A DNA stretch of 13,174 nt from Rhodospirillales bacterium 47_12_T64 (lineage in GTDB: Bacteria; Pseudomonadota; Alphaproteobacteria; Kiloniellales; Kiloniellaceae), in assembly GCA_002162915.1 (NCBI GenBank), contig MABB01000028.1, positions 1 to 13,174 on the forward strand. The letters are read 5' to 3'. Of this stretch, positions 1-13,174 are shown piece after piece. The position numbers and the translations under genes are program-made. The notes beneath the pieces are model-generated. The model saw nothing but the letters and a program-made list of their open reading frames with translations. It was not told where the DNA came from and ran no database searches. Positions within the stretch are counted from its first letter, which is position 1, and each line of letters starts with the position of its first letter.

Positions 1-1315
1 TTTCATAAGCAGCGATTGATAAGACATTGGTTTGTGCAATCGAGGTCGCAGCGGATTCAGCAGCGTTAGCAACATTTGAATCGATATCACTAGAAAGGTT
101 ATCAGAAATGATCTCTTTCAAGGCTTCAAAATCAGTAAGAACAGTATTTCCATTACCGCCACTTGTCTCAAAGGCAGCAATTTTCTCAGCCAGAGTCTTA
201 AACACAGCAGAAGTTACATCAGAAGGATCAACGCCATTGGCGCTCGCAACAACTGAAGAGATCATCGCAACCGTATTTTGGACAAGTACACCAGCCGCGA
301 CAACGGCCAATGCAGCAGCAACAGCTGTTGGATCAGTCCCGTCACGGGCCGCTTCTACCGGATCATAATTTTTAAGATCAACATCGGTTGGAATGTCAAA
401 GGCGTTCGCAACAATCGTTTCCGCATTTTCTACAGAGACACCGTCTTTATCAGCTATATTTGAGATCAGGGTTGTAAGCGGCGTAACGACCGTAGATCCC
501 TCTGGTGCCTTAAGAACACCGGTAAAATCTTTACCGGTAGAAACATCCGTACCACCTGACAAAATGATCGAGCCACTACCGCCGACGAGCGTGTAATTAC
601 CATTTACATCCGTGGTGGTGGATACCTCTCCATTGTTGAGTTCACCATCTTCATTGGCATCCGCAAAAACAGTAGCGCCAGAGATATAACCATCAATGGC
701 CGTACCTTCTAGAACAATGGGATCGTTCTCGATTAGGTTCTCAAGAAACCTGGTAGCAATGCGGACAAAAAGCCGGAACCCGAAGCTGGTGGCAATACCG
801 CTGTCTGAGGATGAATAGGACTGGAGTAAATCTATTAAGGAGCCGATAGCATCGGAATAACTGCTCCCGCCACCTGACTGGCGACCAAACCACCCACCTG
901 CGGTATCCAAAGGGGTTTCCGGGTCAATAACCTGGACAAATTGCCCAAGGGTAAGTGTGGCGGGACCAATATCAAGGAAGGGCGTGCTACCATCATTTTC
1001 AGCGGCTGTTACCAGGTTAAGAAAAACCAACCGACTGGCATCCTCGCCTGAGCCACGGGTCAGAACAACATTCTTGCCTTCGATATCGATAGAGACATTA
1101 TCAGCGTTTCGACTATCCAAAAGCTGTATAACCTGTCCGGTCTTGTACTCTACCTGCTTTTCCTCACCTGAGTTTGGAAATTTTATTTTAATACTTTTAG
1201 GTGTGCTAACAACTTGCCCTGTAATAGATGAACCGGAACTGTAATCTGCGGAAGAGTTCTCTTGGGTGATATTACGCGAAATTTCGCCATCTAAGTCAGC
1301 AGTATTATCAGTCAT
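1..1315 (-). CDS. N-terminal part of a very large Ca-binding repeat/adhesin-like surface protein (3' end outside window)
   Basis: Reading the minus strand from the ATG at 1315 gives 438 codons without a stop, open at the left edge. Residues ~30-130 form a beta-rich segment (GQVVSTPKSIKIKF...NVVLTRGSG) like the N-terminal prefix domains of big proteobacterial adhesins. A Gly/Ser-rich linker lies at ~146-175. Residues ~203-270 look like an SdrD-B/CnaB-type Ig-like domain, with an EF-hand-like loop at 219-230 (D, N, D, E, N, E at loop positions 1, 3, 5, 7, 9, 12) and the phrase GTDVSTGKDFTGVLKAPEGS. From ~275 the protein becomes Ala/Val-rich and alpha-helical. No Sec signal is visible, as is usual for type I-secreted giants whose signal is C-terminal. 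Role in attachment or biofilm is inferred from architecture only; cargo, length and RTX tail cannot be seen. The start is backed by a G-rich stretch 5 nt upstream (1322-1329). Confidence 0.72.
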   Translation of the reverse strand, partial: MTDNTADLDGEISRNITQENSSADYSSGSSITGQVVSTPKSIKIKFPNSGEEKQVEYKTGQVIQLLDSRNADNVSIDIEGKNVVLTRGSGEDASRLVFLNLVTAAENDGSTPFLDIGPATLTLGQFVQVIDPETPLDTAGGWFGRQSGGGSSYSDAIGSLIDLLQSYSSSDSGIATSFGFRLFVRIATRFLENLIENDPIVLEGTAIDGYISGATVFADANEDGELNNGEVSTTTDVNGNYTLVGGSGSIILSGGTDVSTGKDFTGVLKAPEGSTVVTPLTTLISNIADKDGVSVENAETIVANAFDIPTDVDLKNYDPVEAARDGTDPTAVAAALAVVAAGVLVQNTVAMISSVVASANGVDPSDVTSAVFKTLAEKIAAFETSGGNGNTVLTDFEALKEIISDNLSSDIDSNVANAAESAATSIAQTNVLSIAAYE

Positions 1316-1674
1316 TGTGGTCCCCCCCAGGTGCCAAATCACTCCGCCAACCGATAGATTTTATATTTAACGGTTGCGAGATTATTGTATAAAAAAATTC
1401 AAAGTGTTGTTCAGAATTCTTTTGAATCCTAAGGCCGAAATACTACCTATAATAGCTATTTTTACAACTACTTATACTTGAAATTATACAACATTATGTG
1501 TGATTAAATCGTGAAAAATTGATATTAACCATGTAGTTTCAACAATATCATGCATTTAGTATGCATATTATTTTCTAAGCGACTGTCCTGGATAACGCAA
1601 ATTAGCTAATCTCCGTAGGATTTAATTAAATCCACAGCAAAAAAGTCGTCGAGCATGCCCCCCTACTGAGACTT
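1316..1674. other. 359-bp AT-rich intergenic region upstream of the adhesin-like gene
   Basis: No convincing gene is seen here on either strand. It should hold the promoter of the adhesin-like gene, since the LysR gene beyond it reads in the same direction and may end at a weak terminator. A minus-strand TATAAT lies at 1483-1488 without a good -35 at 15-19 bp, so it is only a candidate -10. ATGCAT occurs twice (1550-1555 and 1561-1566), itself palindromic and flanked by AATAT/ATATT, making a bulged inverted repeat that could be an operator or hairpin. A run of seven C (1322-1328, G on the coding strand) sits in the ribosome-binding region of the adhesin-like gene. Confidence 0.5.
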
Positions 1675-1676
1675 TT
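1639..1676 (-). terminator. Weak rho-independent terminator of the LysR gene
   Basis: On the minus strand AAAAGTC (1676-1670) can pair with GACTTTT, and the second arm runs into six T (1644-1639). The stem is only 7 bp, A/T-rich, with a loop of about 22 nt, and it overlaps the LysR stop codon. It is compatible with an inefficient terminator, so some LysR transcripts may read on toward the adhesin-like gene. Confidence 0.3.
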
Positions 1677-2583
1677 ATGTAAGCTTTTTAAAATCACCAT
1701 CCATATTTTGCTCGATCTCTGAAATTCGACCTTTCATAAGTTTGATCAAGGCTGTGGCTGCGGGCGATAGAGTATTGTTTTTAAGTTTAACAAGTCCAAC
1801 TTGCCGCATTTTCGGAACATCCAAAGGAAAGAATTGCAGGAGCTGATCGGTATTGGGCACAGACAATCTAGGTAAAATTGTTACCCCTGTTCCAGCTTTT
1901 ACAAGGGCAAGGACCGAAGTCACGTTATGCACGGTAATGTTACTTGTTCCAATTTGACCCAGTAAGTCTTGGATATTTAAGGATTGTGTAATGCTGTTGG
2001 CCAACAGTTTCTTTTTTCGAAGTAATTTGTTGGAGATGTTTTTTCCCTTTAGTGATGTTACGTCTTCACTGGAGCAAACCAATCCAAGACTATCTTCAAA
2101 AAGAGGGATAAATTCCAAACCAGGCAAAGATTTAGCCCAACTGGATATGCCAAACTGTACACGCCCGCTGTGAACCGCATTGATAACAGATCTTGAATCT
2201 GCATCACGAATTTCAATTTCGACCTTTGGTGAACGCTTGTGAAATGTCTTTATAACAGATGGCAAGATTTGCTCGGCAACAGAAGGTACGCAGGCCAGAG
2301 ACAGATATCCGATCTCGTTTCTCGCGAAAGATTTTATCGATGTAAAAATCTCATCACAATGATCGACCAGATTACGGGTCTGCTCCAGTGCAAACAAACC
2401 CGTTGGGGTTAAATTTCCCTTACGCTCCCCCTGAAACAAAGGGCTTCCTATTTCAATTTCCAACTGCTTTAACGCCATGGATACAGCGGATGGAGTTCGT
2501 CCCAACTGTTCAGACGCCAACATAATTGAACCGTTTTCTGCGACAGATACAAACGTTCGCATCATGGCAAGAGTAATGGTCAT
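1675..2583 (-). CDS. LysR-family transcriptional regulator
   Basis: A 302-residue protein, the normal LysR size. Residues 1-65 are the winged helix-turn-helix: LAMMRTFVSVAENGS, then ASEQLGRTPSAVSMALKQLE, then GSPLFQGERKGNLTPTG, matching the family pattern almost position by position. Residues ~92-300 are the periplasmic-binding-protein-like effector domain (YLSLACVPSVAEQILPSVI, then FGISS, LGLVCS and VKAGTGVTILP). The gene is divergent from the ALDH/Ldh2 chimera with 143 bp between, the usual LysR arrangement, so it probably controlled that catabolic operon in response to a pathway compound. The effector cannot be deduced. The Shine-Dalgarno is weak (GGAT), and Met7 or Met8 are alternative starts, but the chosen start gives the canonical N-terminus. 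If the target operon is a deletion remnant, this regulator may be an orphan. Confidence 0.9.
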   Translation of the reverse strand: MTITLAMMRTFVSVAENGSIMLASEQLGRTPSAVSMALKQLEIEIGSPLFQGERKGNLTPTGLFALEQTRNLVDHCDEIFTSIKSFARNEIGYLSLACVPSVAEQILPSVIKTFHKRSPKVEIEIRDADSRSVINAVHSGRVQFGISSWAKSLPGLEFIPLFEDSLGLVCSSEDVTSLKGKNISNKLLRKKKLLANSITQSLNIQDLLGQIGTSNITVHNVTSVLALVKAGTGVTILPRLSVPNTDQLLQFFPLDVPKMRQVGLVKLKNNTLSPAATALIKLMKGRISEIEQNMDGDFKKLT

Positions 2584-2597
2584 AGCATATCCAATAC

Positions 2598-2613
2598 TTC
2601 AATTTAATTGTAA
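2598..2613. promoter_or_regulatory. Candidate LysR operator in the divergent intergenic region
   Basis: CAATT-T-AATTG (2600-2610) is a perfect 5-bp inverted repeat with one central base, flanked by TT and TAA. It lies 17 bp from the LysR start codon, where autoregulating LysR proteins often bind. It does not give a textbook T-N11-A match, and the region is A/T-rich, so chance is possible. Confidence 0.3.
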
Positions 2614-2633
2614 TATGTGTAAATAATTTGAAT

Positions 2634-2663
2634 TTGACGATAATTGAATAATCTGCAGAAATA
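2634..2663 (+). promoter_or_regulatory. Weak candidate promoter of the chimeric dehydrogenase ORF
   Basis: TTGACG (2634-2639) is a good -35 match. The best -10 after an 18-bp spacer is GAAATA (2658-2663), which is poor and would suit a promoter dependent on a LysR activator. The ORF itself has a good ribosome-binding site, AAGAAGG (2715-2721), 5 nt before its ATG. Confidence 0.25.
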
Positions 2664-2726
2664 AACATCAAATTTCCTGCGCTGGTTTTAACAAGCGCAT
2701 TCTACAATGATCGTAAGAAGGTTGGT

Positions 2727-4043
2727 ATGCAGAATTTTTCAAATTACATCGCGGGCGAATGGGTTTCTTCGGAAAAATTCACTGAAAACCGGAACCCTTC
2801 CGATCTTTCAGACATCATTGGTAATTATGCCCAGGCAAACAAGTCTCAGCTTGACCGGGCGATTGAATCAGCACAACAGGCCCAAAAAATTTGGGCGGCA
2901 ACCGGGTTGGAAAAACGTTACACAGTCTTGATGTCTATTGGCGAAGAAATGAAAGCCCGCTCCGCGGAGCTCGGTGAGCTTCTTTCGCGTGAAGAAGGCA
3001 AACCAACGGCCGAAGGTAAAGGTGAAATTTTCCGCGCAGGCCAGTTCTTTACCTATTACGCCGCAGAAGTTCTTCGCCAGATGGGGGATACCGCTGATTC
3101 CGTACGCGATGGTATTGAAATTGATGTCCGCCGCGAAGCCGTTGGTGTTGTTGCTATTATATCACCTTGGAACTTCCCAACAGCGACAGCCACATGGAAA
3201 ATCGCTCCTGCTCTGGCTTATGGCAACGCAATACCTGCGCTTGATATTGTCCGTCCGGGCCTGGCTATTGCCGATGCTAAAACCGGGTTTGCTCACCCTG
3301 CAATAGATCTCGGTTTTGAGTGGTTGGCAAAAACAGCCCGTGAACAGGGAATAGCTGCATTAGGATTACGCAATTCATATAACTGCGGTATTCTCGGATA
3401 TCACACAGACTGTCTTGCATCTAAAGGTTTGCTTGGCATTGGATTTACCAACGCACCAGCCTCTGTTGCACCAGTAGGTGGAAAAAAAGCAGTCCTTGGT
3501 ACCAATCCTTTCTCCGTTGCGGTTCCTGGCTCAAACGGCGAAACGCGTATTCTCATTGATCAGAGCGCATCAGTAATCGCGAAAAGTGAAGTCATGAAGT
3601 ATGCCCGTGAAGGCCGGGCAATCCCAGAAGGATGGGCGCTTGGACCTGATGGGCAACCAACAACAGATCCTGATGTTGCCCTGAAAGGCACCATGATCCC
3701 CAGTGGTAGTTACAAAGGATTTGGCGCCGCTTTAATGGTGGAACTAATGGCAGCAGCTTTAACTGGCGCTACTTTGGGTATTCATTCCAGTCCCTTTTCA
3801 GGACCCGTTGGCGGTCCTCCGAAAACGGGCCAATTCTTTATCGCCATTGACCCGGAAATCTCTTCCGGGGGAGCATTCTCTGATCGGGTTGATCACCTGA
3901 TCGAAGCGATTACCGGACAAGACGGAACTCACCTGCATGGTACAGAACGGTTTTCTGCCCGTGAACGTGCAAACAATGATGGAGTGGCTGTTAACGCCGC
4001 CATAGTTGAAAAGGTGAATGAGTGGGCAACGAAGTTCAATTAA
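2727..4043 (+). CDS. In-frame chimera: truncated aldehyde dehydrogenase N-terminus fused to truncated Ldh2-family dehydrogenase C-terminus (probable deletion remnant)
   Basis: A 438-residue ORF with a strong ribosome-binding site (AAGAAGG, 5 nt). Residues 1-168 are the N-terminal part of an NAD(P)-dependent aldehyde dehydrogenase close to the alpha-ketoglutarate semialdehyde dehydrogenase type: NYIAGEWVSS, then RREAVGVVAIISPWNFPTAT, then WKIAPALAYGNA. The expected continuation (VVFKPA..., catalytic Glu and Cys) is missing, and the protein switches at about 3228-3240 to the Ldh2 family (malate/L-lactate/sulfolactate dehydrogenase-like): IVRPGLAIADA, GFAHPAIDLG, NSYNCGILGYH, APVGGKKAVLGTNPFSVAVP, PSGSYKGFG, GPPKTGQFFIAIDP. 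A complete ALDH is ~480 residues and a complete Ldh2 ~330-350. The first ~60 Ldh2 residues, which carry the catalytic SHG motif, are absent. Neither half should be an active enzyme. This is best explained by a deletion joining two genes of one catabolic operon; an assembly chimera is the alternative. A terminator follows. Confidence 0.85.
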   Translation: MQNFSNYIAGEWVSSEKFTENRNPSDLSDIIGNYAQANKSQLDRAIESAQQAQKIWAATGLEKRYTVLMSIGEEMKARSAELGELLSREEGKPTAEGKGEIFRAGQFFTYYAAEVLRQMGDTADSVRDGIEIDVRREAVGVVAIISPWNFPTATATWKIAPALAYGNAIPALDIVRPGLAIADAKTGFAHPAIDLGFEWLAKTAREQGIAALGLRNSYNCGILGYHTDCLASKGLLGIGFTNAPASVAPVGGKKAVLGTNPFSVAVPGSNGETRILIDQSASVIAKSEVMKYAREGRAIPEGWALGPDGQPTTDPDVALKGTMIPSGSYKGFGAALMVELMAAALTGATLGIHSSPFSGPVGGPPKTGQFFIAIDPEISSGGAFSDRVDHLIEAITGQDGTHLHGTERFSARERANNDGVAVNAAIVEKVNEWATKFN

Positions 4044-4130
4044 TAAAACAGGTTAACAAAACAAATTATCTTATTGATATTAATAGCTAACATGTATTAT
4101 TAATTAACTGTTTCTTTCACATCTCTTTAT

Positions 4131-4167
4131 AAAAGGCCACTCATTTTGAATGCTGTGGTCTTTTTTT
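4131..4167. terminator. Bidirectional rho-independent terminator between the chimeric ORF and norD
   Basis: AAAGGCCAC (4132-4140) pairs with GTGGTCTTT (4155-4163) with a single G-U wobble and a 14-nt loop, followed by seven T (4161-4167) on the plus strand. Read on the minus strand the same stem ends in GTGGCC followed by TTTT, so it can also stop transcripts coming out of norD. It separates two convergent transcription units. Confidence 0.75.
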
Positions 4168-4269
4168 ATGAGGAGCTATCCCAGAGAACCTGTCATCAAA
4201 GCTGAGACAGCCTAATACGATTTACTTACTCTAAGAGATCATGAGAATAATGAACTTTTAGCCGTATTT

Positions 4270-6222
4270 TCAACACTTGAGGAGTTGCCTATAAATTTTG
4301 GGCAAAGCCTGAGATAAACGGTCAGCATTCCCGACGATATGATAGGCCCCGCGACCAAAGATGGTTGGAAAGTAATCTTTTGCTTCTTTATCTATGGTTA
4401 CGCCAAAAACGGTAATGCCTCTATTCCGACATTCCCGGACTGATTTTCGAGCATCTTCGATCCCATAGCGTCCCTCGTAATGATCGACATCGTTTGGTTT
4501 ACCGTCGGTTAGAATAAGGAGTAATTTTTGTTTGTTGGGACGTTTCTCCAACTCTTCGGCCATGACCCGGATTGCGGCACCAATTCTTGTGTAATACCCA
4601 GGTTTTAAAGCTTTGATCCGGCGCATGACCTGATCATTAAGCGGTTCGTCAAAGCCTTTGACCCGGTCAATACGTATGTAATCGCGTTTTCGCGATGTGA
4701 AGGTATGGATGGAAAGATCATCACCGGATGCATCAAGACCATTGGCAAGTATAGCCAGTGATTCTTTTTCAACGTCGATTACCCTTCTGTCATCCAGCCA
4801 ACTGTCAGTCGAAAGGGAGACATCCATTAATATGGACACCGCGATGTCTCTCTCCACCTTGCGGGTGTTCACATAAATTCGGTCGGAACAAACACCGTTC
4901 CCTTTTAGATCAGCCTGTGCTCGAACCAGTGCCTCAATATCCAACTCTGCACCATCGGATTGAGCGCGCAGTTGCTTACGATCGTTTTTAAAGGCTTCAA
5001 ATTGTCGTCTAACCAAACGTATCCGCCGTACAGCTTTATCATCCAGCTCCCAGCCGTCGCCTTCTTCCGAAGCTTGCCGCATGGTAATAGCACAGTACGC
5101 AGGCAAAAATGCTTTCTTGCGATAGTGCCACTCATGCACCGTTCTTTTGGCTTCTATCCGACTTTCATCCAATTCATTGGCTGGAAGGTCGAGATCTATT
5201 TTGATCTTGGTCGCTACTTTTTCATCATGATCGCTTAAGGTTATCCGATCAATGTCATCGACCGTTTCCAAGGCATCATCTTCGTCATCTTCTTTGATGT
5301 TGCGGTTCAGATTAATAATGTCAGATACCGCCATGAGCTTGTCATAAACGCTGACAAAAAAACCGTCATCTTTCTTGGTTTCATCCAGGCTTTTACGTTC
5401 TGCCCGATGTTTTTTTCGCTCTTCGGATTGCTTCGCACCTCCGCCTCCCGCTTCGGTCCCGGCAGAATCTGTTGCGTAAGTCGTCTCTATGACTTCGCCC
5501 CACAAGGGAACAGGTAAAAAAGGACGATACTTCATGCTCGCTTTTTCAATCTTGTCCAAATGCATGATTTCTGGATCTGAAGAGGTAACAAATTCAAGAT
5601 ATCTTTTTGCCAGAGAAGAAAGCGCGTCCTTTTGCCCTAACAAATGAAGAACAACATCTTCAATGGCGTGTTCCTGCTCTGGAAGGTGATCGCGTTTTGG
5701 GCGCAAAACGAGAAGGAATGATGTCAGATTTTCCTTGATTGATCGAAGCCCCGGCAGCTGCGCAAGGGCGGCCTCGGACCTTTTATGTGAATGCCTGATA
5801 AAGGTCAGGTCATGTAACAAGGGGTCACTTACATGCCTTGATGCATTTTCTGGATCTTGGATAAAGAAAGCTGCCAGCCAGAAATAGAGATCTCTGTTGA
5901 GAGCGGCCGTTGGGAAAAGGGCAATCCGATCCGGTAACATCAAGGTTCTGCCATCAAAGGTCGGACGTTCGAGCTTTTCAACGTCAATACCAAGTTTTTG
6001 GCGAAAAGAAAGCCGATGCTCTGATTTTTCCTGCCCAGCACCCGCAATCTCAACCCCATTTACACCGCCAAGACCGCGAAAGAAAACACTCAAGACAGCG
6101 CGAACTTCTTCCAGAGAAACCCTTTGCTCGTCAAAGGAGGAATAGCTTTCGACACCGGATATCAGTTTGTGCCATTGACGTCCCACGAACTCTTCGACTT
6201 CAATGAGCTCCATAATACCCAT
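4270..6222 (-). CDS. norD: NorD, VWA-domain activation protein of nitric oxide reductase
   Basis: A 650-residue cytoplasmic protein needed with NorQ to activate NorCB, probably by assisting insertion of the non-heme iron Fe_B. The C-terminal von Willebrand A domain (~460-650) has a complete MIDAS: D467-x-S469-x-S471 in ILMDVSLSTDSW, T545 in YYTRIGAAIRVM and D573 in LILTDGKPND. The N-terminal ~240 residues are the helical NorD-type region. The linker at 250-330 is highly charged and low in complexity, with a Gly run, a Lys/Arg/Glu segment and an acidic stretch DDEDDALETVDD. ATG at 6222 is preferred because AGGAG lies 8 nt upstream; Met4 would be an alternative. It is the last gene of norCBQD, 84 bp after norQ. 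The VWA/MoxR pairing with NorQ matches the CbbQO and NorQD systems. Confidence 0.93.
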   Translation of the reverse strand: MGIMELIEVEEFVGRQWHKLISGVESYSSFDEQRVSLEEVRAVLSVFFRGLGGVNGVEIAGAGQEKSEHRLSFRQKLGIDVEKLERPTFDGRTLMLPDRIALFPTAALNRDLYFWLAAFFIQDPENASRHVSDPLLHDLTFIRHSHKRSEAALAQLPGLRSIKENLTSFLLVLRPKRDHLPEQEHAIEDVVLHLLGQKDALSSLAKRYLEFVTSSDPEIMHLDKIEKASMKYRPFLPVPLWGEVIETTYATDSAGTEAGGGGAKQSEERKKHRAERKSLDETKKDDGFFVSVYDKLMAVSDIINLNRNIKEDDEDDALETVDDIDRITLSDHDEKVATKIKIDLDLPANELDESRIEAKRTVHEWHYRKKAFLPAYCAITMRQASEEGDGWELDDKAVRRIRLVRRQFEAFKNDRKQLRAQSDGAELDIEALVRAQADLKGNGVCSDRIYVNTRKVERDIAVSILMDVSLSTDSWLDDRRVIDVEKESLAILANGLDASGDDLSIHTFTSRKRDYIRIDRVKGFDEPLNDQVMRRIKALKPGYYTRIGAAIRVMAEELEKRPNKQKLLLILTDGKPNDVDHYEGRYGIEDARKSVRECRNRGITVFGVTIDKEAKDYFPTIFGRGAYHIVGNADRLSQALPKIYRQLLKC

Positions 6223-6306
6223 GATGAGTTCTCCTGGCTTATCTTAAACTCTGCTTAAACGCTGAATATGAAAAATTGATCTCGATTGGGGCTTAGGGTC
6301 CGGGGT

Positions 6307-7089
6307 TTACCCAAAACTCACACGGACGACTTCTTCCAGCCCTTGCTTGACGTCGTATTCATCCGTAAGTGGTTCGATCATCGCGTGGCGAATTGCTTCG
6401 TCAAAACCGAGGCCAGCATTAATTAACGTTGCGCAATAGACCAGCAGACGGGTGGAAACCCCCTCTTCCAAATCCTGCCCCTTCATTTCTCTCAATTTAT
6501 GGGCGAGCCGGACAAGCCCCATGGTGCGATCGGGATCAAGTCCGCTTTCCGTCGCAACAATGCGGGCTTCTGTCTTGGCATCTGGAAAGTCAAACTCAGC
6601 AGCGACAAAACGCTGACGCGTACTTGGCTTTAGACTTTTCATCATGTTTTGGTACCCGGGATTATAAGAGACCACCAACATGAAGTTGTCCGGCGCCTCC
6701 AAAAGCTCTCCCGTGCGTTCGAGCGGTAAAATTCTGCGGTCATCCGTTAAGGGGTGGAGTACGACAGCTACGTCTTTTCTGGCCTCAACCACTTCATCAA
6801 GATAACAAATTCCACCCTCACGTACAGCCTTGGTCAGGGGGCCATCTGTCCATACCGTATCACCGCCTTTTAAGAGAAAGCGACCAGTCAGGTCTGATGC
6901 GGATAAATCGTCATGACAGGATACCGTATGTAACGGAATACCGATTTCATGGGCCATATGACTGACAAATCGGGTCTTCCCACAGCCTGTGGGACCTTTT
7001 AATAACAATGGCAGTTTATTCTCGAATGCCAATTCAAAAAGCCGGCATTCATTTGCTGTTGGTTCGTAATAAGGTTGTGATTGGGCCAT
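6307..7089 (-). CDS. norQ: NorQ, MoxR/CbbQ-type AAA+ ATPase for nitric oxide reductase activation
   Basis: A 260-residue AAA+ ATPase of the CbbQ/NirQ/NorQ group that works with the VWA protein NorD to activate NorCB, likely as a hexamer that remodels the reductase. Walker A is GPTGCGKT (32-39), Walker B is GGICYLDEVVEAR, and sensor 1 lies in MLVVSYNPGYQ; the C-terminal lid follows. I place the start at the ATG at 7089 (MAQSQPYYEPTANECRLFE), which agrees with family N-termini of the PYYxPxxNEC type. An upstream in-frame TTG at 7101 adds only four residues. No good Shine-Dalgarno is visible, so translation may be modest. It follows norB after 157 bp, a gap that holds a strong hairpin, and precedes norD by 84 bp. 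Confidence 0.93.
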   Translation of the reverse strand: MAQSQPYYEPTANECRLFELAFENKLPLLLKGPTGCGKTRFVSHMAHEIGIPLHTVSCHDDLSASDLTGRFLLKGGDTVWTDGPLTKAVREGGICYLDEVVEARKDVAVVLHPLTDDRRILPLERTGELLEAPDNFMLVVSYNPGYQNMMKSLKPSTRQRFVAAEFDFPDAKTEARIVATESGLDPDRTMGLVRLAHKLREMKGQDLEEGVSTRLLVYCATLINAGLGFDEAIRHAMIEPLTDEYDVKQGLEEVVRVSFG

Positions 7090-7166
7090 AACAAATACCA
7101 ATTTATATTAATGAAATAACGAATGAGAACAGCAACAATCTATTGAAAGATGATCTTGATCGGGGA

Positions 7167-7197
7167 TGTCGAGGCTTCCTAAATCGAAGCCCCGACA
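7167..7197. repeat. Strong intercistronic hairpin between norB and norQ
   Basis: TGTCGAGGCTTC (7167-7178) and GAAGCCCCGACA (7186-7197) form a 12-bp stem with one A-C mismatch and a 7-nt loop. On the minus (nor mRNA) strand no T-run follows, so it is not a standard terminator. It lies 50 nt after the norB stop and could block 3' decay of the norCB message or lower expression of norQD relative to norCB. Confidence 0.6.
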
Positions 7198-7246
7198 AAC
7201 AGTCCGCAGATAATCCACAGACAATCAGAGATAACCCGTTTAATGC

Positions 7247-8596
7247 CTACTCAGCCGGCTGTTGTTGACCAGGCACCTTCACACGCTGTGTTTCACGTTC
7301 AGGAACGAGAAGAGAATAAACAACAATGAACGCGCCGATTACCACGACTATGCCTGAGCCTAAACGGAGCTGGTAGAAGAACACCATCTGATCTTGTACA
7401 TCCATATAGGACTCACCCAGGAACCGCTGTACATGAGCTTGGATCACCCCGGCAAATGTCAGCGTAAAGGTCATAAAAGCGACCCCGGATGATGTTACCC
7501 AGAACCCCCACATGTTCAGGGTTTGACGATAAGGTTCACGCCCGAGCAGTTTGGGTAATGCGTAAGTCATTATCGCGAGATTAACCATCACATAGGCGCC
7601 ATAGAACGCAAGGTGACCGTGCGCGGCTGTTACCTGTGTTCCATGAGTGTAATAGTTGACGCTCGCAAGTGTATGCAAGAAACCCCATACTCCTGCACCA
7701 AAGAAGGCAAATACTGAACAGCCAAGTGCCCAGAGGATCGCGGCACTGTTTGGATGTTTCCGACCACCTTTCCAAACCATGTAGAAGGTAAAGAGAACCA
7801 TCGCAAAGAACGGTGCCACTTCAAGGGTGGAGAACACGGAGCCAATCCACTGCCAATAGCCCGGTGTACCGATCCAATAGTAGTGGTGTCCGGTTCCCAA
7901 CAGCCCCGTAAACAAGGCCAGGCTGACAATAAGGTAAAGCCATTTTTCAACGATCTCACGGTCCACACCGGTCAACTTGATCATCAAGAAGGCCAGAATG
8001 GAAGCCATAATCAATTCCCAGACACCTTCGACCCAGAGGTGAACAACAAACCACCAGAATACTTTATCCAGAACAAGGTTGACGGGATTATAGAAAGCAA
8101 AGAGGAACAGCAGAGCAACCATCCACAGGCCGACAATCATTATCATCGATACCGCGGTTTTCCGCCCCTTGAGAACTGTCATGCTCAAATTAAAGAGGAA
8201 CATCAGCATCACAACAACAATGGCAAGCTTGATCCAGAGAGGCTGTTCCAGGAATTCTCGTCCTCCGTGAATTCCCATAAGGTAACCAACAATTGCCGCA
8301 GCCCCCCCGAACAAGAATAACCAAAACTGGATTTTTGCAATAAGAGGGCTATAAATTTCAGTCTCAGCTTCTTCCGGAACCAAGTAGTAAGCTGCCCCCA
8401 TGAAGCCCATCAACAACCATACAATAAGACTGTTGGTATGTATCATCCGGATGACATTAAAGGGTAAGCTTTCAGCCAATAGATTAGGCCATACATATAT
8501 AGCTCCCGCCAAGGCACCAAAAGTCACCTGAGCAAGGAACAAGACAAGCGCACCCACAAAATAATAGAGTGCAACATTTTGAGTTTGATATTTCAT
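7247..8596 (-). CDS. norB: NorB, catalytic cytochrome b subunit of nitric oxide reductase (cNOR)
   Basis: A 449-residue inner-membrane protein of the heme-copper oxidase superfamily with about 12 transmembrane helices, which reduces 2 NO to N2O. All metal ligands are visible: low-spin heme b by H53 and H328, heme b3 by H326, Fe_B by H186, H237 and H238. The conserved glutamates are E190 and E194 (HLWVEGVWEL) and E259 (STLEVAPFF). Spacing matches Pseudomonas NorB throughout with a constant 21-residue offset. It lacks the N-terminal quinol-oxidase extension of qNor, so it needs the NorC partner encoded 18 bp upstream. The start is supported by AAAGGAGA upstream of the ATG. The short tail (VKVPGQQQPAE) is hydrophilic. 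Confidence 0.97.
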   Translation of the reverse strand: MKYQTQNVALYYFVGALVLFLAQVTFGALAGAIYVWPNLLAESLPFNVIRMIHTNSLIVWLLMGFMGAAYYLVPEEAETEIYSPLIAKIQFWLFLFGGAAAIVGYLMGIHGGREFLEQPLWIKLAIVVVMLMFLFNLSMTVLKGRKTAVSMIMIVGLWMVALLFLFAFYNPVNLVLDKVFWWFVVHLWVEGVWELIMASILAFLMIKLTGVDREIVEKWLYLIVSLALFTGLLGTGHHYYWIGTPGYWQWIGSVFSTLEVAPFFAMVLFTFYMVWKGGRKHPNSAAILWALGCSVFAFFGAGVWGFLHTLASVNYYTHGTQVTAAHGHLAFYGAYVMVNLAIMTYALPKLLGREPYRQTLNMWGFWVTSSGVAFMTFTLTFAGVIQAHVQRFLGESYMDVQDQMVFFYQLRLGSGIVVVIGAFIVVYSLLVPERETQRVKVPGQQQPAE

Positions 8597-8614
8597 TCGA
8601 TGTCTCCTTTCGGC

Positions 8615-9070
8615 CTAGCCTTCTTCATTTGGTGGCCAATTCTGGGTGTTGATCCCATTGGTCCACTTGAAGAATTCAACAAGACCGTTCAATTCCTCCT
8701 CACTAAGGTTAAACTGAGGCATTTGGCGACGACCTTCTATGCCGGAAGGCTGTGATTTCATCCATTCCTTGATGTAATCACTGGCCCCTTCTGCATCATC
8801 TTCACCGCCGCGACGGGCCCATACGTTCCCAAGTTCAGGCGCGAAATAAGCCCCCTCTCCAAGAAGAGTGTGACAATTAATACAGGAATGCCGTTCCCAA
8901 ACTTCTTTACCCAACGCAACTTTTTCATTGAGTTGATCTGCATTTGATGTTTTGGCATCAGTTGCATAGTTCACCGAATGAACAACCAGACCAATAAAGA
9001 TCACGGCAAAGAAGATAGTTCCTCCGTAGAAGATATTTCGGGCGGCGCTGATTGATAAGCGCTCATTCAT
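8615..9070 (-). CDS. norC: NorC, membrane-anchored cytochrome c subunit of nitric oxide reductase
   Basis: A 151-residue subunit that passes electrons from periplasmic cytochrome c or cupredoxin to NorB. A single N-terminal transmembrane anchor (~12-33, NIFYGGTIFFAVIFIGLVVH) leads to a periplasmic cytochrome c domain with heme site C63-I-N-C66-H67 and axial M117 in GRRQMPQFNLSEEEL; the end, FFKWTNGINTQNWPP, is typical of the family. I choose ATG at 9070: GGGGAG lies 7 nt upstream of it. An in-frame GTG at 9085 would add five residues and lies inside that ribosome-binding site. It is the first gene of norCBQD, under the FNR/NNR-like promoter at 9142-9183. Confidence 0.96.
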   Translation of the reverse strand: MNERLSISAARNIFYGGTIFFAVIFIGLVVHSVNYATDAKTSNADQLNEKVALGKEVWERHSCINCHTLLGEGAYFAPELGNVWARRGGEDDAEGASDYIKEWMKSQPSGIEGRRQMPQFNLSEEELNGLVEFFKWTNGINTQNWPPNEEG

Positions 9071-9141
9071 AATGGATCTCCCCACTGCTAGACGGATGCG
9101 AGAAGGCTAAGCACAGCGCAAAAGACCTCTCCATCACCCAA

Positions 9142-9184
9142 TAGATACATCATCGCCACATCTTTAAACTTGACGATGGTCAAG
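9142..9184 (-). promoter_or_regulatory. norC promoter with a perfect FNR/NNR-type box
   Basis: CTTGAC-GATG-GTCAAG (9169-9184) is a perfect 6-bp inverted repeat that fits the TTGAY-N4-RTCAA pattern bound by FNR, NnrR and DNR proteins. On the minus strand a TATCTA -10 lies at 9147-9142, predicting a start near 9135. The box centre (9176.5) is then about -41.5, the classic class II activator position. The leader to the norC ATG would be about 65 nt. Confidence 0.8.
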
Positions 9185-9420
9185 AGCCGCTCGAAATAAC
9201 AACTATTGTTAAAAAATTAATCTCGGTTCTTGGAGCTTCTTATGGAACTTCGTTTATTTACAGGTGATCAGGGCTAACTTTACCTAAACTTTCTTCAACA
9301 AAAAACACATCCCAAGTGCCGCTTCATTATTTTCAAGCCGAGTGTGACAAAATGTATCAATTTACATATTATTATTACAATTCAATAGATTACAAAATTA
9401 AACCAAGTTGAAAATTTGGC

Positions 9421-9433
9421 GGAAGTCACTTCC
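9421..9433. repeat. Perfect palindrome next to the nirK activator box
   Basis: GGAAGT-C-ACTTCC is a perfect 6-bp inverted repeat with one central base. It abuts the FNR-like box at 9434 and is centred near -55 relative to the predicted nirK start. It does not match the FNR pattern and could be the site of a second regulator. Confidence 0.45.
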
Positions 9434-9476
9434 TTGCTCAAAGTCAAATATCTCAAATAGCCCTCAACCTTAATAT
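9434..9476 (+). promoter_or_regulatory. nirK promoter with an FNR/NNR-like box
   Basis: TTGCT-CAAA-GTCAA (9434-9447) matches TTGAY-N4-RTCAA with a perfect right half and one clear mismatch in the left half. A TAATAT -10 lies at 9471-9476, giving a start near 9482, so the box centre (9440.5) is again about -41.5. No good -35 exists, consistent with class II activation by an FNR-family protein. The left-half mismatch predicts weaker binding than at norC. Confidence 0.65.
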
Positions 9477-9485
9477 TTTACATGA

Positions 9486-9502
9486 GCTGATTTTAAGTCA
9501 GC
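9486..9502 (+). repeat. Hairpin at the 5' end of the nirK leader
   Basis: GCTGA (9486-9490) and TCAGC (9498-9502) form a 5-bp stem with a 7-nt loop, within a few nucleotides of the predicted transcription start. A 5'-terminal stem can protect an mRNA from decay. Its spacing (TGA-N7-TCA) excludes an FNR box. Confidence 0.4.
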
Positions 9503-9506
9503 CCAC

Positions 9507-9585
9507 TAAAGAGGGGTCACCTCTTGCCATGATACCATGAGGTTGAGAAAGCGTTCCAGGCATCGCCTGGAACCTTAAAGAGGAG
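9507..9585 (+). promoter_or_regulatory. Structured nirK leader: anti-Shine-Dalgarno segment, leader peptides and hairpin
   Basis: TAAAGAGG occurs twice, at 9507-9514 and in the nirK ribosome-binding site at 9576-9583. CCTCTT (9520-9525) can pair with the AAGAGG of either copy: as a local hairpin with the first, or sequestering the ribosome-binding site with the second. Between them lies a 9-bp perfect stem, GTTCCAGGC (9553-9561) with GCCTGGAAC (9565-9573), ATC loop, ending 3 nt before the ribosome-binding site. The elements suggest switchable translation initiation. No known riboswitch family is recognised. Confidence 0.45.
9537..9578 (+). CDS. Possible 13-residue basic leader peptide upstream of nirK
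   Basis: ATG at 9537 opens a 13-codon ORF, MRLRKRSRHRLEP, ending in TAA at 9576-9578, inside the nirK ribosome-binding region. It overlaps by ATGA with a 3-codon ORF (ATG ATA CCA TGA, 9529-9540) that has GAGGGG 12 nt upstream, so translation could be coupled. Ribosomes moving along it would open the 9-bp hairpin at 9553-9573. Six of 13 residues are Arg or Lys. It may be chance; there is no family evidence. Confidence 0.25.
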   Translation: MRLRKRSRHRLEP

Positions 9586-9595
9586 TAAATAAATT

Positions 9596-10795
9596 ATGGA
9601 AAACAATAACGAAAAAAACATGGACCGACGCAGTTTTCTGAGAAACACAACTCTGGCATCCACTGGTGCTGCGATTGGTGCACTTTCAATGGCCGGAACG
9701 GCCGAGGCATCAAGCCAGAATAATTTGACACAGTTAGGTTTTGATCAAATTGCCAGTACTTCTGCCAAAATCCAAACAACGTTAACCGAAGATGAAATTG
9801 CCAAACTGCCTCGTGTAAAACAGAAAATGGTTTTGCCCCCGTTTGTCCCCGAACACGAACAGCACGCCAAAGGCGGACCAAAGGTTATTGAGGTCGAGTT
9901 TGTCATCGAAGAAAAGCCCTGGGCAATTGATGATGAAGCCGAAACCATCGCCATGACCTTCCATGGCAGTGTACCAGGTCCCCTGATCATTGCGCACGAA
10001 GGTGACTATGTTGAATTGACGTTGGTAAACCCTGAATCAAACTCCATGGAACATAACATCGACTTTCATTCTGCAACCGGTGCCCTGGGCGGCGGCGGAC
10101 TGACACACGTTCTGCCGGGAGAAACAGCGGTATTACGGTGGAAAGCCACCAAACCCGGAACATTTATTTATCACTGCGCTCCTGGCGGGTCCATGATCCC
10201 CTATCACGTGATAAAAGGAATGAGCGGTGCGGTTGTTGTACTCCCACGCGCCGGACTAACCGATGGTCGGGGAAATGCTCTTAGCTATGACAAAATGTAC
10301 TATGTCGGAGAGCAGGATTTCTACGTGCCGAAGGATGTAAACGGCGACTACATGAAGTTCACCGAGGCTGGTGAAGACTTTAACGAAGTAATGGAACTCG
10401 CCCGCGGATTAATCCCGACCCATGAAGTATTTAACGGCAGAGTTGGTGCCTTGACCGGTGATAGCGCCCTTAAAGCAAATGTGGGTGAAACTGTCCTGTT
10501 TATTCACTCTCAGGCCAACCGGGATTGCCGTCCCCATTTAATTGGTGGGCACTGGAATTATTCCTGGGAAGCAGGTTCCTTTGATGACATTCCGGGTCGG
10601 GGACATGAAACAGCCCTTATCCGTGGTGGATCTGCCGGTGCATTCCTTTATGAATTCTTGCAGCCCGGCGTCTATGCCTATGTCAATCACAACCTGATCG
10701 AGGCAACTGAACTAGGGGCCGTTGGGCATATCATTGTTGAGGGCGAATGGAATGACGAACTCATGAAGCAAATCAAAAAAGGTGATGTTTCCTAG
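9596..10795 (+). CDS. nirK: NirK, Tat-exported copper-containing nitrite reductase
   Basis: A 399-residue periplasmic two-cupredoxin-domain enzyme that reduces nitrite to NO, working as a trimer. A Tat signal is visible: DRRSFLRNT (10-18), a hydrophobic stretch, and probable cleavage near AEA-SS (37-40). Type 1 copper ligands are H153, C194, H204 and M209; type 2 ligands are H158, H193 and H365 (YVNHNLIEA); the catalytic pair is D156 and H319 (RPHLIGGH). The start has AGGAG 10 nt upstream. The residue before the type 1 His is Tyr203 (MIPYHV) where the family almost always has Trp. No C-terminal cytochrome or cupredoxin fusion is present. It heads a nirKV unit divergent from norCBQD, with an FNR-like box at -41.5. 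Confidence 0.97.
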
Positions 10796-10839
10796 CCATT
10801 GGAGTTAGCTCGCGTATTGAATAACTTGGCTCTATTTTT
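10794..10839 (+). terminator. Imperfect attenuator-like hairpin between nirK and nirV
   Basis: AGCCA (10794-10798) pairs with TGGCT (10827-10831), and inside it AGTTA (10803-10807) pairs with TAACT (10822-10826), with TTGG bulged on one side. The short T-rich run CTATTTTTG follows. This could partly terminate transcription after nirK and keep nirV at lower levels; the bulge makes it weak. Confidence 0.35.
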
Positions 10840-10863
10840 GTCTGATTAAAACGGGATGTTAAA

Positions 10864-11655
10864 ATGATAAAATACCTGAACTTATCATTCATCGTTTTTA
10901 CAGGGATATTACTTGGAGGCGGTGCTCTTCTTGTATCGCATTATTCTGAGAAAACCTCTCGGATGGATGCCGTTCTGGCTGATACCCCTCAGTACCACCC
11001 CAGACTAATCAGAATAGAACTAGAGCCAAGCAGTACACAACCAACCTCGCAACCAAGGGTGATATATGTTGCCTATTCAGAGGTATCGATAGCCCAATGG
11101 CAAAGTTGTTACGAAGATGGCGGGTGTGGTTACAAACCAAAGATGCGCTCCAATGAAACCCCGCACCATCCCGTTACAAAAGTCAGTTACTTCGACGTCG
11201 AGGAGTTCATTGCCTGGTTGTCCGGGAAAACAGGTCAGCAATTTAGATTACCACTGGAATCAGAATGGAACTACATTTCACAAGATGTCATTAGTCCTCC
11301 AAAAAAGCTGTTCGATGATCCCCGACTGGCATGGGCTGCAGATTACGTAACATTTCTTGAGCGCCCAACCACCAATAAAACCAAAGAGATTGGCGGACAC
11401 GGCATCAATAAATACGGGCTCGTCGATCTACGAGGCAATGTTTGGGAATGGACCCAGACTTGCTGGAATACGGATTACAGTACCTTGCAAACATCCCCAG
11501 AGAAAACGAAAACCTGTGGTGGTGTGAGGATTATGCAAGGTGAACACAGATCTTATCAGTCAGAACTCATTCGAGATCCAAAAATCGGCGGTTGCTCTGT
11601 CGGATCGCCGCCTAATAACATTGGATTTCGTCTCGTAATGGATGCTGTTCCCTAA
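10864..11655 (+). CDS. nirV: NirV, SUMF1/formylglycine-generating-enzyme-like protein associated with NirK
   Basis: A 263-residue protein with an N-terminal signal anchor (~5-26, LNLSFIVFTGILLGGGALL) and a periplasmic FGE/SUMF1-like domain: HHPVTKVSYFDVEEFIAWLS (101-120), RLPLESEWNY (128-137), NKYGLVDLRGNVWEWTQ (182-198) and NNIGFRLV (251-258). The usual RGGSW motif is replaced by CGGVR. Such genes follow nirK in many denitrifiers and are called nirV; their reaction is not established, and the catalytic Cys pair of true formylglycine-generating enzymes is not evident (Cys at 82, 88, 200, 218 and 244). It starts 68 bp after nirK behind an attenuator-like hairpin, with a weak GGGA ribosome-binding site, and converges on the DUF2249-like gene with 39 bp between. 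Confidence 0.87.
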   Translation: MIKYLNLSFIVFTGILLGGGALLVSHYSEKTSRMDAVLADTPQYHPRLIRIELEPSSTQPTSQPRVIYVAYSEVSIAQWQSCYEDGGCGYKPKMRSNETPHHPVTKVSYFDVEEFIAWLSGKTGQQFRLPLESEWNYISQDVISPPKKLFDDPRLAWAADYVTFLERPTTNKTKEIGGHGINKYGLVDLRGNVWEWTQTCWNTDYSTLQTSPEKTKTCGGVRIMQGEHRSYQSELIRDPKIGGCSVGSPPNNIGFRLVMDAVP

Positions 11656-11694
11656 AGAAATACACTGGCACAACTTTCAAATACTTCATTAGGA

Positions 11695-12228
11695 TCAAGT
11701 AGCTATTGTCGCCTCTAGCAAAAGAACAACGCAATTATCCTGCTTGTTCTCGATCAGTGATGTCCAGCCACGTTCCGACAACAGTGTTTGAAATTTTGGA
11801 GGAAAGGTCTTTATGTGTACACGCAATCTATCATCATCGAATGACGTTTCCATAAAGCGTAAAACCTCAAGGAAGTTATTAGGGTATTCTATCCCCAGAA
11901 CATCCATGGTCAGGATTTCGCTATCAAAGTGAAATCTGGCCTTGTTATCTGATGTTTTCTTTACCGGAGTTGGGCTCTGTTGGGCATTGCGTGTAATAGA
12001 AAAGAGCCAGCCATCTGCAGATTTTTCCCGACCAATGTTACAACCAAGCTGTTTAAGTTTTAACCGAAGTGGAATAGGGTCAAAGTTTGATCGCAACGTT
12101 ACTTCAGCGTAAGAATTTTCACCAAAAATGGCATCCAATACGACATCAACCGGGATGAGCCCCTCTGCAAGAAGGGTTTCAACACACAACTCGCAACAGG
12201 TACACTCAGTATCAGATTGCTTTTGCAT
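11695..12228 (-). CDS. Cysteine-motif protein with two DUF2249/TusA-like domains
   Basis: A 177-residue cytoplasmic protein without signal or membrane segments. The N-terminus has a tight cluster, C9-x-C11-C12-x-x-C15 (TECTCCELC), suited to binding a metal or Fe-S cluster. Residues ~27-80 (VDVVLDAIFGENSY, then DPIPLRLKLKQLGCNIG, then GWLFSIT) resemble DUF2249, a TusA-like fold; residues ~99-175 (TMDVLGIEYPNNFLEVLRFM, then LLSERGW) look like a second, diverged copy after a Lys/Ser/Pro linker. DUF2249-like proteins are often found near NO and nitrite genes, but their role is unknown. GAGGG lies 9 nt upstream of the ATG. It starts 56 bp after the Crp/Fnr gene and is probably co-transcribed, linking it to nitrogen-oxide control. 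The family call is from pattern memory; the second domain is less sure. Confidence 0.65.
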   Translation of the reverse strand: MQKQSDTECTCCELCVETLLAEGLIPVDVVLDAIFGENSYAEVTLRSNFDPIPLRLKLKQLGCNIGREKSADGWLFSITRNAQQSPTPVKKTSDNKARFHFDSEILTMDVLGIEYPNNFLEVLRFMETSFDDDRLRVHIKTFPPKFQTLLSERGWTSLIENKQDNCVVLLLEATIAT

Positions 12229-12284
12229 TGCAGGAAGCCCTCATTTCAAACTTTTACTTCGGCTTTTGGTTGACGAAAAATTCA

Positions 12285-13016
12285 TCAAGCAGACATCAAC
12301 AACTTATTCTCGGCAAAAACATAACCAAAACCAGCGCAATAGCGTCTCAACTTTTCTGGATCAGTAATAACGACTTCCTGTCCCTCACAGACAATACCAG
12401 CATCTTCCAAACGCCGGAGAACTCTGGAAAAACTAGCCGGATCTATACCAATGTTACTGGCAATCGTCTGTTTACAGCGGGGAAGATTTCCAAACCCTTT
12501 CCAATCATGACTTTCGTATAGGGCAAGCAATTTCGAAGCCACACGCTGACAGGGAGAAAGACTTTTCAAGACCTTAATTTCGCTAACCAAAAACTGCTGT
12601 CTTTGAATAAGAGCGCTCAATAGATGTAGAGAAGCCTCAGGATTACTTGAAATTTTCTTTTCAAATATCGGCTTGGACAATTTTATAATCATTGAGCTCG
12701 GCATTGCAGTGCCATTGATTGGAAATACACCCAACCCCAACATCGCCGCCTCGGCAAAACTTTCACCAGGTTCAACTATTCGCAGCAGGCTTTCAGCGCC
12801 CTCCGCTGTTAAGACAGAAAGATGTACTTCTCCCTCAAGAAGAACATAAAACCCGTCGGCAGGGTCCCCGGCCATAAATAAATCGGTACATTCTTCGTAA
12901 ATTATTGCCGAGACATTCTCAAAGAGGTCTTCCAGGAGTTCCTTGGGTAATTGGGAAAAAATGGCCACTCTTGATAAAGCCTGAAACTCATCATTTCCAA
13001 GAGTAAAATGTTTCAT
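12285..13016 (-). CDS. Crp/Fnr-family regulator, DNR/NnrR-like (no Fe-S cysteine set)
   Basis: A 243-residue regulator with an N-terminal cyclic-nucleotide-binding-like beta barrel (~15-120: LFMAGDPADGFYVLLEGEVHL, then VEPGESFAEAAML), a dimerisation helix (~125-152) and a C-terminal winged helix (~178-225: CKQTIASNIGIDPASFSRVL). It lacks the N-terminal four-Cys pattern of FNR, so it belongs with DNR/NnrR-like proteins that respond to NO, though the ligand is not shown. The recognition helix has Ala194 where FNR-type proteins carry Glu. I choose ATG at 13016 because AAAGGG lies 7 nt upstream; an in-frame codon at 13058 would add 14 residues that overlap the preceding gene. It follows another Crp/Fnr gene by 20 bp and likely controls nor/nir. 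Confidence 0.88.
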   Translation of the reverse strand: MKHFTLGNDEFQALSRVAIFSQLPKELLEDLFENVSAIIYEECTDLFMAGDPADGFYVLLEGEVHLSVLTAEGAESLLRIVEPGESFAEAAMLGLGVFPINGTAMPSSMIIKLSKPIFEKKISSNPEASLHLLSALIQRQQFLVSEIKVLKSLSPCQRVASKLLALYESHDWKGFGNLPRCKQTIASNIGIDPASFSRVLRRLEDAGIVCEGQEVVITDPEKLRRYCAGFGYVFAENKLLMSA

Positions 13017-13036
13017 CTTTATACCCTTTATCTCGC

Positions 13037-13174
13037 CTAGCTTTGTGTATATCCACAATAAACAGCTAATTTTTCGACGCTATCGATGTTGACTTTATTT
13101 CCAGGAACAGTACGTACACCGACTTTTTTTAATTTGGCAAAAGTGCGTGACAGTGTTTCAGGTGACATACCTAA
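13037..13174 (-). CDS. C-terminal end of a second Crp/Fnr-family regulator (5' end outside window)
   Basis: Reading minus from the right edge gives 45 codons ending in TAG at 13037-13039: LGMSPETLSRTFAKLKKVG, then VRTVPGNKVNIDSVEKLAVY, then CGYTQS. This is the recognition helix and wing of a Crp/Fnr helix-turn-helix. It keeps the PETLSR motif, with the Glu, Ser and Arg that FNR-type proteins use to read TTGAY-N4-RTCAA. It lies 20 bp upstream of the complete Crp/Fnr gene in the same direction, so two paralogues sit in tandem. The sensor domain is not in the window. Confidence 0.82.
   Translation of the reverse strand, partial: LGMSPETLSRTFAKLKKVGVRTVPGNKVNIDSVEKLAVYCGYTQS

Follow-up and report, generated by a model that had tools for sequence, protein, structure and literature searches.

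An open reading frame that joins an aldehyde dehydrogenase head to an Ldh2 tail in a Kiloniellaceae genome, probably left by a deletion within a catabolic operon

The window, a stretch of 13,174 nucleotides from contig MABB01000028.1 of the marine Rhodospirillales bacterium 47_12_T64 (genome G000), carries an open reading frame (ORF) at 2727-4043 that is best explained, with a probability of about two in three, as the remnant of a catabolic operon after one deletion of ~6.37 kb between two short similar sites. The parts of the ORF, their undeleted order in relatives, and the short homology and its frame in locus L031 are read directly from sequence comparison. The fusion is probably a recent in-frame deletion product that is inert and ordinary in kind, and not a new type of protein.

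Composition of the fused ORF

The ORF is a single open frame that starts with ATG, encodes 438 amino acids and has no internal stop between the two family parts. Pfam analysis of its product identified Aldedh at residues 12-169 (profile 1-157 of 461, E 1.4e-39) and Ldh_2 at residues 168-430 (profile 63-332 of 333, E 3.7e-74). These two truncated matches in one open frame confirm the original prediction: residues 1 to ~168 of the product are the head of an aldehyde dehydrogenase (ALDH), and the rest, continuing in frame, is the tail of an Ldh_2 protein. As judged from the sequences, the match of both halves to their parent families is far beyond chance. The principal features of the window are:

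1675..2583, minus strand: LysR-family regulator, 302 aa, divergent; Pfam LysR_substrate and HTH_1 both present
2727..3229, plus strand: ALDH head, from the ATG to about codon 168; Pfam Aldedh 12-169; DNA homology to 3229
3220..3229, plus strand: junction, ATGGCAACGC, a near-repeat common to both parents; codons 166-168 encode G-N-A
3230..4043, plus strand: Ldh2 tail, corresponding to an Ldh_2 protein of 337 aa from residue ~69 onwards, stop codon included; Pfam Ldh_2 168-430
4270-13058: denitrification cluster by Pfam: NorD-type VWA, NorQ, NorB, NorC, Cu nitrite reductase-like, FGE/SUMF1-domain, 177-aa unknown and Crp/Fnr regulator

The ALDH head corresponds, as an orthologue, to residues 1 to 168 or 169 of a Kiloniella aldehyde dehydrogenase of 482 aa, with 84% amino-acid identity to four Kiloniella heads and 91% identity, over residues 28-170, to the head from the closest relative (G006). 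The Ldh2 tail exhibits 87-92% amino-acid identity to four Kiloniella tails (92% to L031) and lacks the first 66-68 Ldh2 residues, which comprise a three-helix N-terminal segment and the SHG motif. DNA matches of relatives span the LysR gene and the ALDH head together.

DNA comparison with L031 places the end of ALDH homology at 3229 and the start of Ldh2 homology at 3220. The original prediction had the family switch at about residue 168, which stands, and at nucleotides 3228-3240, which move slightly to the left, to 3220-3229. It also had the ALDH part stop right after APALAYGNA, before the catalytic Glu and Cys, which alignments with intact homologues bear out, and the Ldh2 part start after SHG, which is likewise the case, the tail beginning ~18 residues past the motif.

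The undeleted operon in relatives

A search of named genomes yielded 77 loci, three of the closest of them from Kiloniella; genes in these loci were called at cut-offs of 40% identity and 50% of the length of the query. In 70 of the 77 loci ALDH and Ldh2 are separate genes on one strand, with ALDH upstream. The others have the reverse order (one, L103), Ldh2 alone (one, L095) or ALDH alone (five: L092 and L104-L107). All 70 ALDH-Ldh2 loci contain an M19 gene and 69 a 573-aa ORF. The BCCT gene was called in 11 of the 70 at the 40% identity and half-length cut, suggesting that the transporter of the operon varies.

The gene order in Kiloniella is LysR (divergent), ALDH, M19 dipeptidase, BCCT transporter, 573-aa ORF, DUF3726 and Ldh2, followed 3' of Ldh2 by a regulator of DJ-1/AraC type on the opposite strand and, beyond it, by genes that we take to be sarcosine-oxidase-like. 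The whole operon is present on one contig in L032, L033 and L034; in G006, LysR and the start of ALDH are on contig C32 and the remainder is on contig C56, which constitutes L031. Intact, separate parents of the fusion are thus found in the same order in L031-L034. Both enzymes had been assigned to one catabolic operon under a divergent LysR gene, and the Kiloniella relatives have this arrangement. The 573-aa ORF (L032 5328-7049) has no Pfam match, and the DUF3726 protein of the operon is encoded at L032 7007-7756. A literature search on the operon and on DUF3726 found no function.

Breakpoint and proposed deletion

The two parental sites in L031, ATGGTAATGCTGT and ATGGCAATGCCGT, are identical at 11 of 13 bases, a match that is equalled by 32 of the 1,238,472 pairs of ALDH and Ldh2 positions in that genome. 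Both sites encode G-N-A-V in the same phase, and with G-N-A in the same frame at both sites an open fusion follows automatically. At the same two sites in L032-L034 only 8-9 of 13 bases are identical, so the homology is perhaps special to this lineage, or smaller than it appears in L031. The two sites lie at 437 and 6811 in L031, and 6,374 bp present there are gone from the window; set against L032-L034 the loss is 6,376 to 6,409 bp. The proposed loss of the ALDH 3' end, the intervening genes and the Ldh2 5' end is therefore supported by the intact Kiloniella operon, and the short direct homology that was expected at the ends of the missing segment is present, and clear only in the closest relative.

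RecA-independent loss of the DNA that separates short direct repeats is described for bacteria (PMC5426353). Replication slippage or RecA-independent recombination may have joined the two sites here, in which case the deletion of ~6.37 kb would have taken the C-terminal two thirds of ALDH, the four intervening genes in full and the N-terminal 66-68 residues of Ldh2, and the shared G-N-A frame would have kept the fusion open. Expression would continue from the old ALDH start, and the product would have neither enzyme activity. The deletion is likely to have been recent and selectively neutral.

Loss of catalytic residues and predicted fold

The stretches MEMGSKNP and GQKCTASS of the intact L032 ALDH, which we take to be the catalytic Glu and Cys motifs, lie well beyond residue 169, and the fusion changes family before reaching them. 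It possesses the N-terminal family match of an ALDH and lacks both motifs, and its top NCBIfam ALDH matches reach 143-145 bits against cut-offs of 750-770. Similarly, it possesses the family match to the Ldh_2 body and lacks the invariant SHG histidine. Residues S47, H48, G49 and Y52 of the Ldh2 clade (L032 numbering) are each conserved in 122 of 122 homologues and are missing from the fusion.

Work on AllD (PMC3527362) proposes that catalysis throughout the family depends on His44 or His116; counted from SHG, AllD residues Ser43, His44, Arg48 and Tyr52 named there fall in the part missing from the fusion. The position of AllD His116 seems to correspond to N120 here (DpkA and 2x06 alignments, with equal spacing from SHG), which is Asn in 122 of 122 homologues. 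With Asn at that position and SHG lost, no catalytic-type His would be left in the fusion. Judged from the lost residues, the fusion product is very probably inactive as either enzyme.

AlphaFold2 modelling of the fusion gave a mean pLDDT of 67.2 and a pTM of 0.51 (37 alignment rows), whereas the intact L032 Ldh2 gave 84.2 and 0.84 (21 alignment rows); this contrast serves as supporting evidence only, since neither alignment was deep and true homologues of the fusion are lacking. Helices 9-22, 27-42 and 50-61 of the intact L032 Ldh2 model are those gone from the fusion. Searched against known structures, the fusion model matched Ldh2 entries first and ALDH entries after them; superposition was poor (rmsd 11.9-19.2 over the listed Ldh2 matches), and this comparison contributes little.

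Search for the fused architecture elsewhere

In a full-length protein search, the best 120 of 7,819 matches (8,000 candidates scored) all covered the Ldh2 part only, 61-62% of the query. With a junction query of residues 125-215, each of the best 120 of 4,547 matches covered at most 75% of the 91 residues and belonged to one Pfam family. Across 61 genomes of the order, including its own, residues 1-438 were matched by the window alone (E <= 1e-88). In 185 fetched loci, the head had matches in 113 ORFs and the tail in 89; both halves were matched by four ORFs, all of which are pieces of the window itself. A stable fusion family was consequently rejected, the architecture being absent from the best-120 lists, the 60 other genomes of the order and the 185 loci; a widespread family of full-length homologues, named in advance as the finding that would speak for a stable fusion, is not seen in these sets. 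L103, a second candidate for a close pair (match to residues 6-435), was also rejected, because its Ldh2 gene lies upstream of a separate ALDH gene.

Age and constraint

Polarised amino-acid changes in the fused parts number 8 on the G000 branch and 7 on the G006 branch, a comparison of low power with 15 changes in total, in which the ALDH head was compared over only 140 of its 168 codons. Eight control genes of the window have 116 (G000) and 109 (G006) changes (Fisher p = 1). Against G006, pS is 0.61 for one fused part and 0.68 for the other, and dN/dS was left out as evidence because synonymous sites are near saturation. The lack of relaxed constraint suggests that the deletion is recent relative to the split from G006, or that the junction is artificial, or, with the lowest likelihood, that the ORF has been kept.

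Two residues are unusual. C229 (3411-3413) occupies a position at which, out of 122 Ldh2 homologues, 115 carry Arg and not one carries Cys, and Cys is not seen in L031; it is possibly an early sign of decay. T19 is found once among 121 ALDHs, and L031 does not cover this position.

Flanks of the fusion and the assembly

The LysR gene and the fusion stand between a gene at 2-1342 and norD, and the gene order breaks from that of relatives at both ends of this block, near 1681 and between 4028 and 4265. Both changes are at gene boundaries and none is inside a gene. None of eight congeners has DNA that matches bases 1-1680. In G006 an AraC-type regulator gene and others come after LysR, and another AraC-type regulator comes after Ldh2; the contig with the G006 nor cluster stops 121 bases beyond the norD match. 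The ORF that comes after norD in G008 and G005 encodes 470 or 461 aa. Because both flanks differ from those of relatives, which goes beyond what the original prediction had expected, one deletion does not account for the locus in full. Judged on gene order, the locus must then have been rearranged at no fewer than two further points, either by natural events or in a chimeric contig.

The ORF at 2-1342 is truncated by the contig end, which leaves the N-terminal 447 aa of its product; this part is rich in Ser, Gly and Asp, appears adhesin-like by eye and has no Pfam match. The denitrification cluster is largely collinear with contig C91 of G006. Repeats in 1300-4350 consist of short imperfect pairs only, with no matching pair at the two block borders, and Pfam identified no transposase families among the 11 window proteins scanned. 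An Rfam search gave no match, and a promoter and terminator scan gave counts no higher than in shuffles.

The G000 assembly comprises 1,476,473 bases in 134 contigs with an estimated completeness of 77.6%; the genomes of the eight congeners are 4.2-4.9 Mb. Within G000, the only DNA match to the deleted segment is an ALDH paralogue on contig C7, and the absence of the operon is weak evidence because the assembly is incomplete. The last 85 bases of the window contig (13090-13174) are the first 85 of contig C5, so these two contigs probably adjoin; among the 75 contig ends compared (12 wholly N), this is the sole real exact overlap longer than 20 bp.

Genome decay was considered as a cause and rejected, since three G000 stretches (58,725 bases) are largely collinear with G006 and contain no 6-kb loss; the largest differences seen, both on contig C40, are a deficit of ~1.4 kb and an excess of ~1.1 kb on the G000 side. 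ORF coverage is 0.886 in G000 stretches over 7 kb, some of which carry short N runs, and 0.882 in G006 samples; coverage over the whole assembly was not used, as six contigs are wholly N. Wholesale decay is not apparent in the G000 sample, although the assembly is small.

Alternative explanations

The deletion reading has three points against it: the lack of a decay signature, the homology of only 8 or 9 of 13 bases in L032-L034, and the changes at both flanks. Some of these would suit a junction formed as a chimera during library preparation, amplification or assembly, with the operon of the organism intact. The two halves look fully constrained, as intact genes would, the G000 assembly is fragmented, and the order departs from relatives at both ends of the LysR-fusion block. 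Work on amplification chimeras (PMC1855051) reports that 76.8% of junctions have at least 2 bp of complementarity, up to 21 bp, and that segments were joined in direct orientation in 15%, so short homology of the kind seen here is common at such junctions. A chimeric junction is nevertheless unlikely: a 10-bp repeat alone would hardly mislead this assembler, judging from the one 85-bp overlap between contig ends, about one third of random joins would be expected in frame, the flank changes are both at gene boundaries, and C229 would be odd in a working Ldh2. Less probable still is a broken second copy that moved beside the nor cluster while the intact operon resides in an unassembled part of the genome. 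The unmatched bases 1-1680, norD as the right-hand neighbour and the size of the assembly (1.48 Mb at 77.6% completeness against 4.2-4.9 Mb) fit such a copy; however, neither another copy nor the deleted genes are found in the G000 assembly, the window proteins and block borders hold no transposase family and no matching repeat pair, and a duplication would be required besides the deletion.

Retention of the fused protein by selection for a non-enzymatic role, such as binding, regulation or the poisoning of hetero-oligomers, is very improbable. The frame is open with no excess of amino-acid changes, and the start codon and upstream LysR gene are in place, yet the lack of decay is equally expected from a recent event. 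In addition, no homologue of the fused architecture was found among the best-120 lists or the 60 other genomes, a strongly conserved position (229) carries Cys, and the predicted fold is of low confidence compared with that of intact Ldh2. We would give hardly any credence to a newly born, selected protein consisting of an ALDH N-terminal part and an Ldh2 body under the old LysR control and without catalysis. A recent event, an assembly chimera and a retained ORF had been the three outcomes foreseen; the substitution counts oppose a long-decayed pseudogene and do not oppose a chimeric contig.

Significance and comparison with known systems

If the junction is real, the deletion provides a clean case in which short same-frame homology between unrelated genes made an open chimeric gene at once. 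Otherwise the ORF is mainly a warning, as annotation could label it a dehydrogenase; neither activity nor a pathway should be inferred from it.

The event shares with RecA-independent short-repeat deletions in bacteria, as described in the source cited above (PMC5426353), two similar short sites, the loss of the DNA between them and the retention of one copy; unlike those deletions, it is reconstructed solely from relatives, and its sites are imperfect and ~10-13 bp long. Compared with members of the aldehyde dehydrogenase family (PF00171), near the alpha-ketoglutaric semialdehyde / 2,5-dioxovalerate dehydrogenases, the fusion lacks the C-terminal two thirds, including the catalytic Cys and Glu regions, and shares the first ~168 residues. 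Compared with the Ldh_2 / L-sulfolactate dehydrogenase-like family (PF02615), of which 1wtj, 2x06 and AllD 4fju are solved structures, it lacks the N-terminal 66-68 residues, SHG included, and shares tail residues ~69-337.
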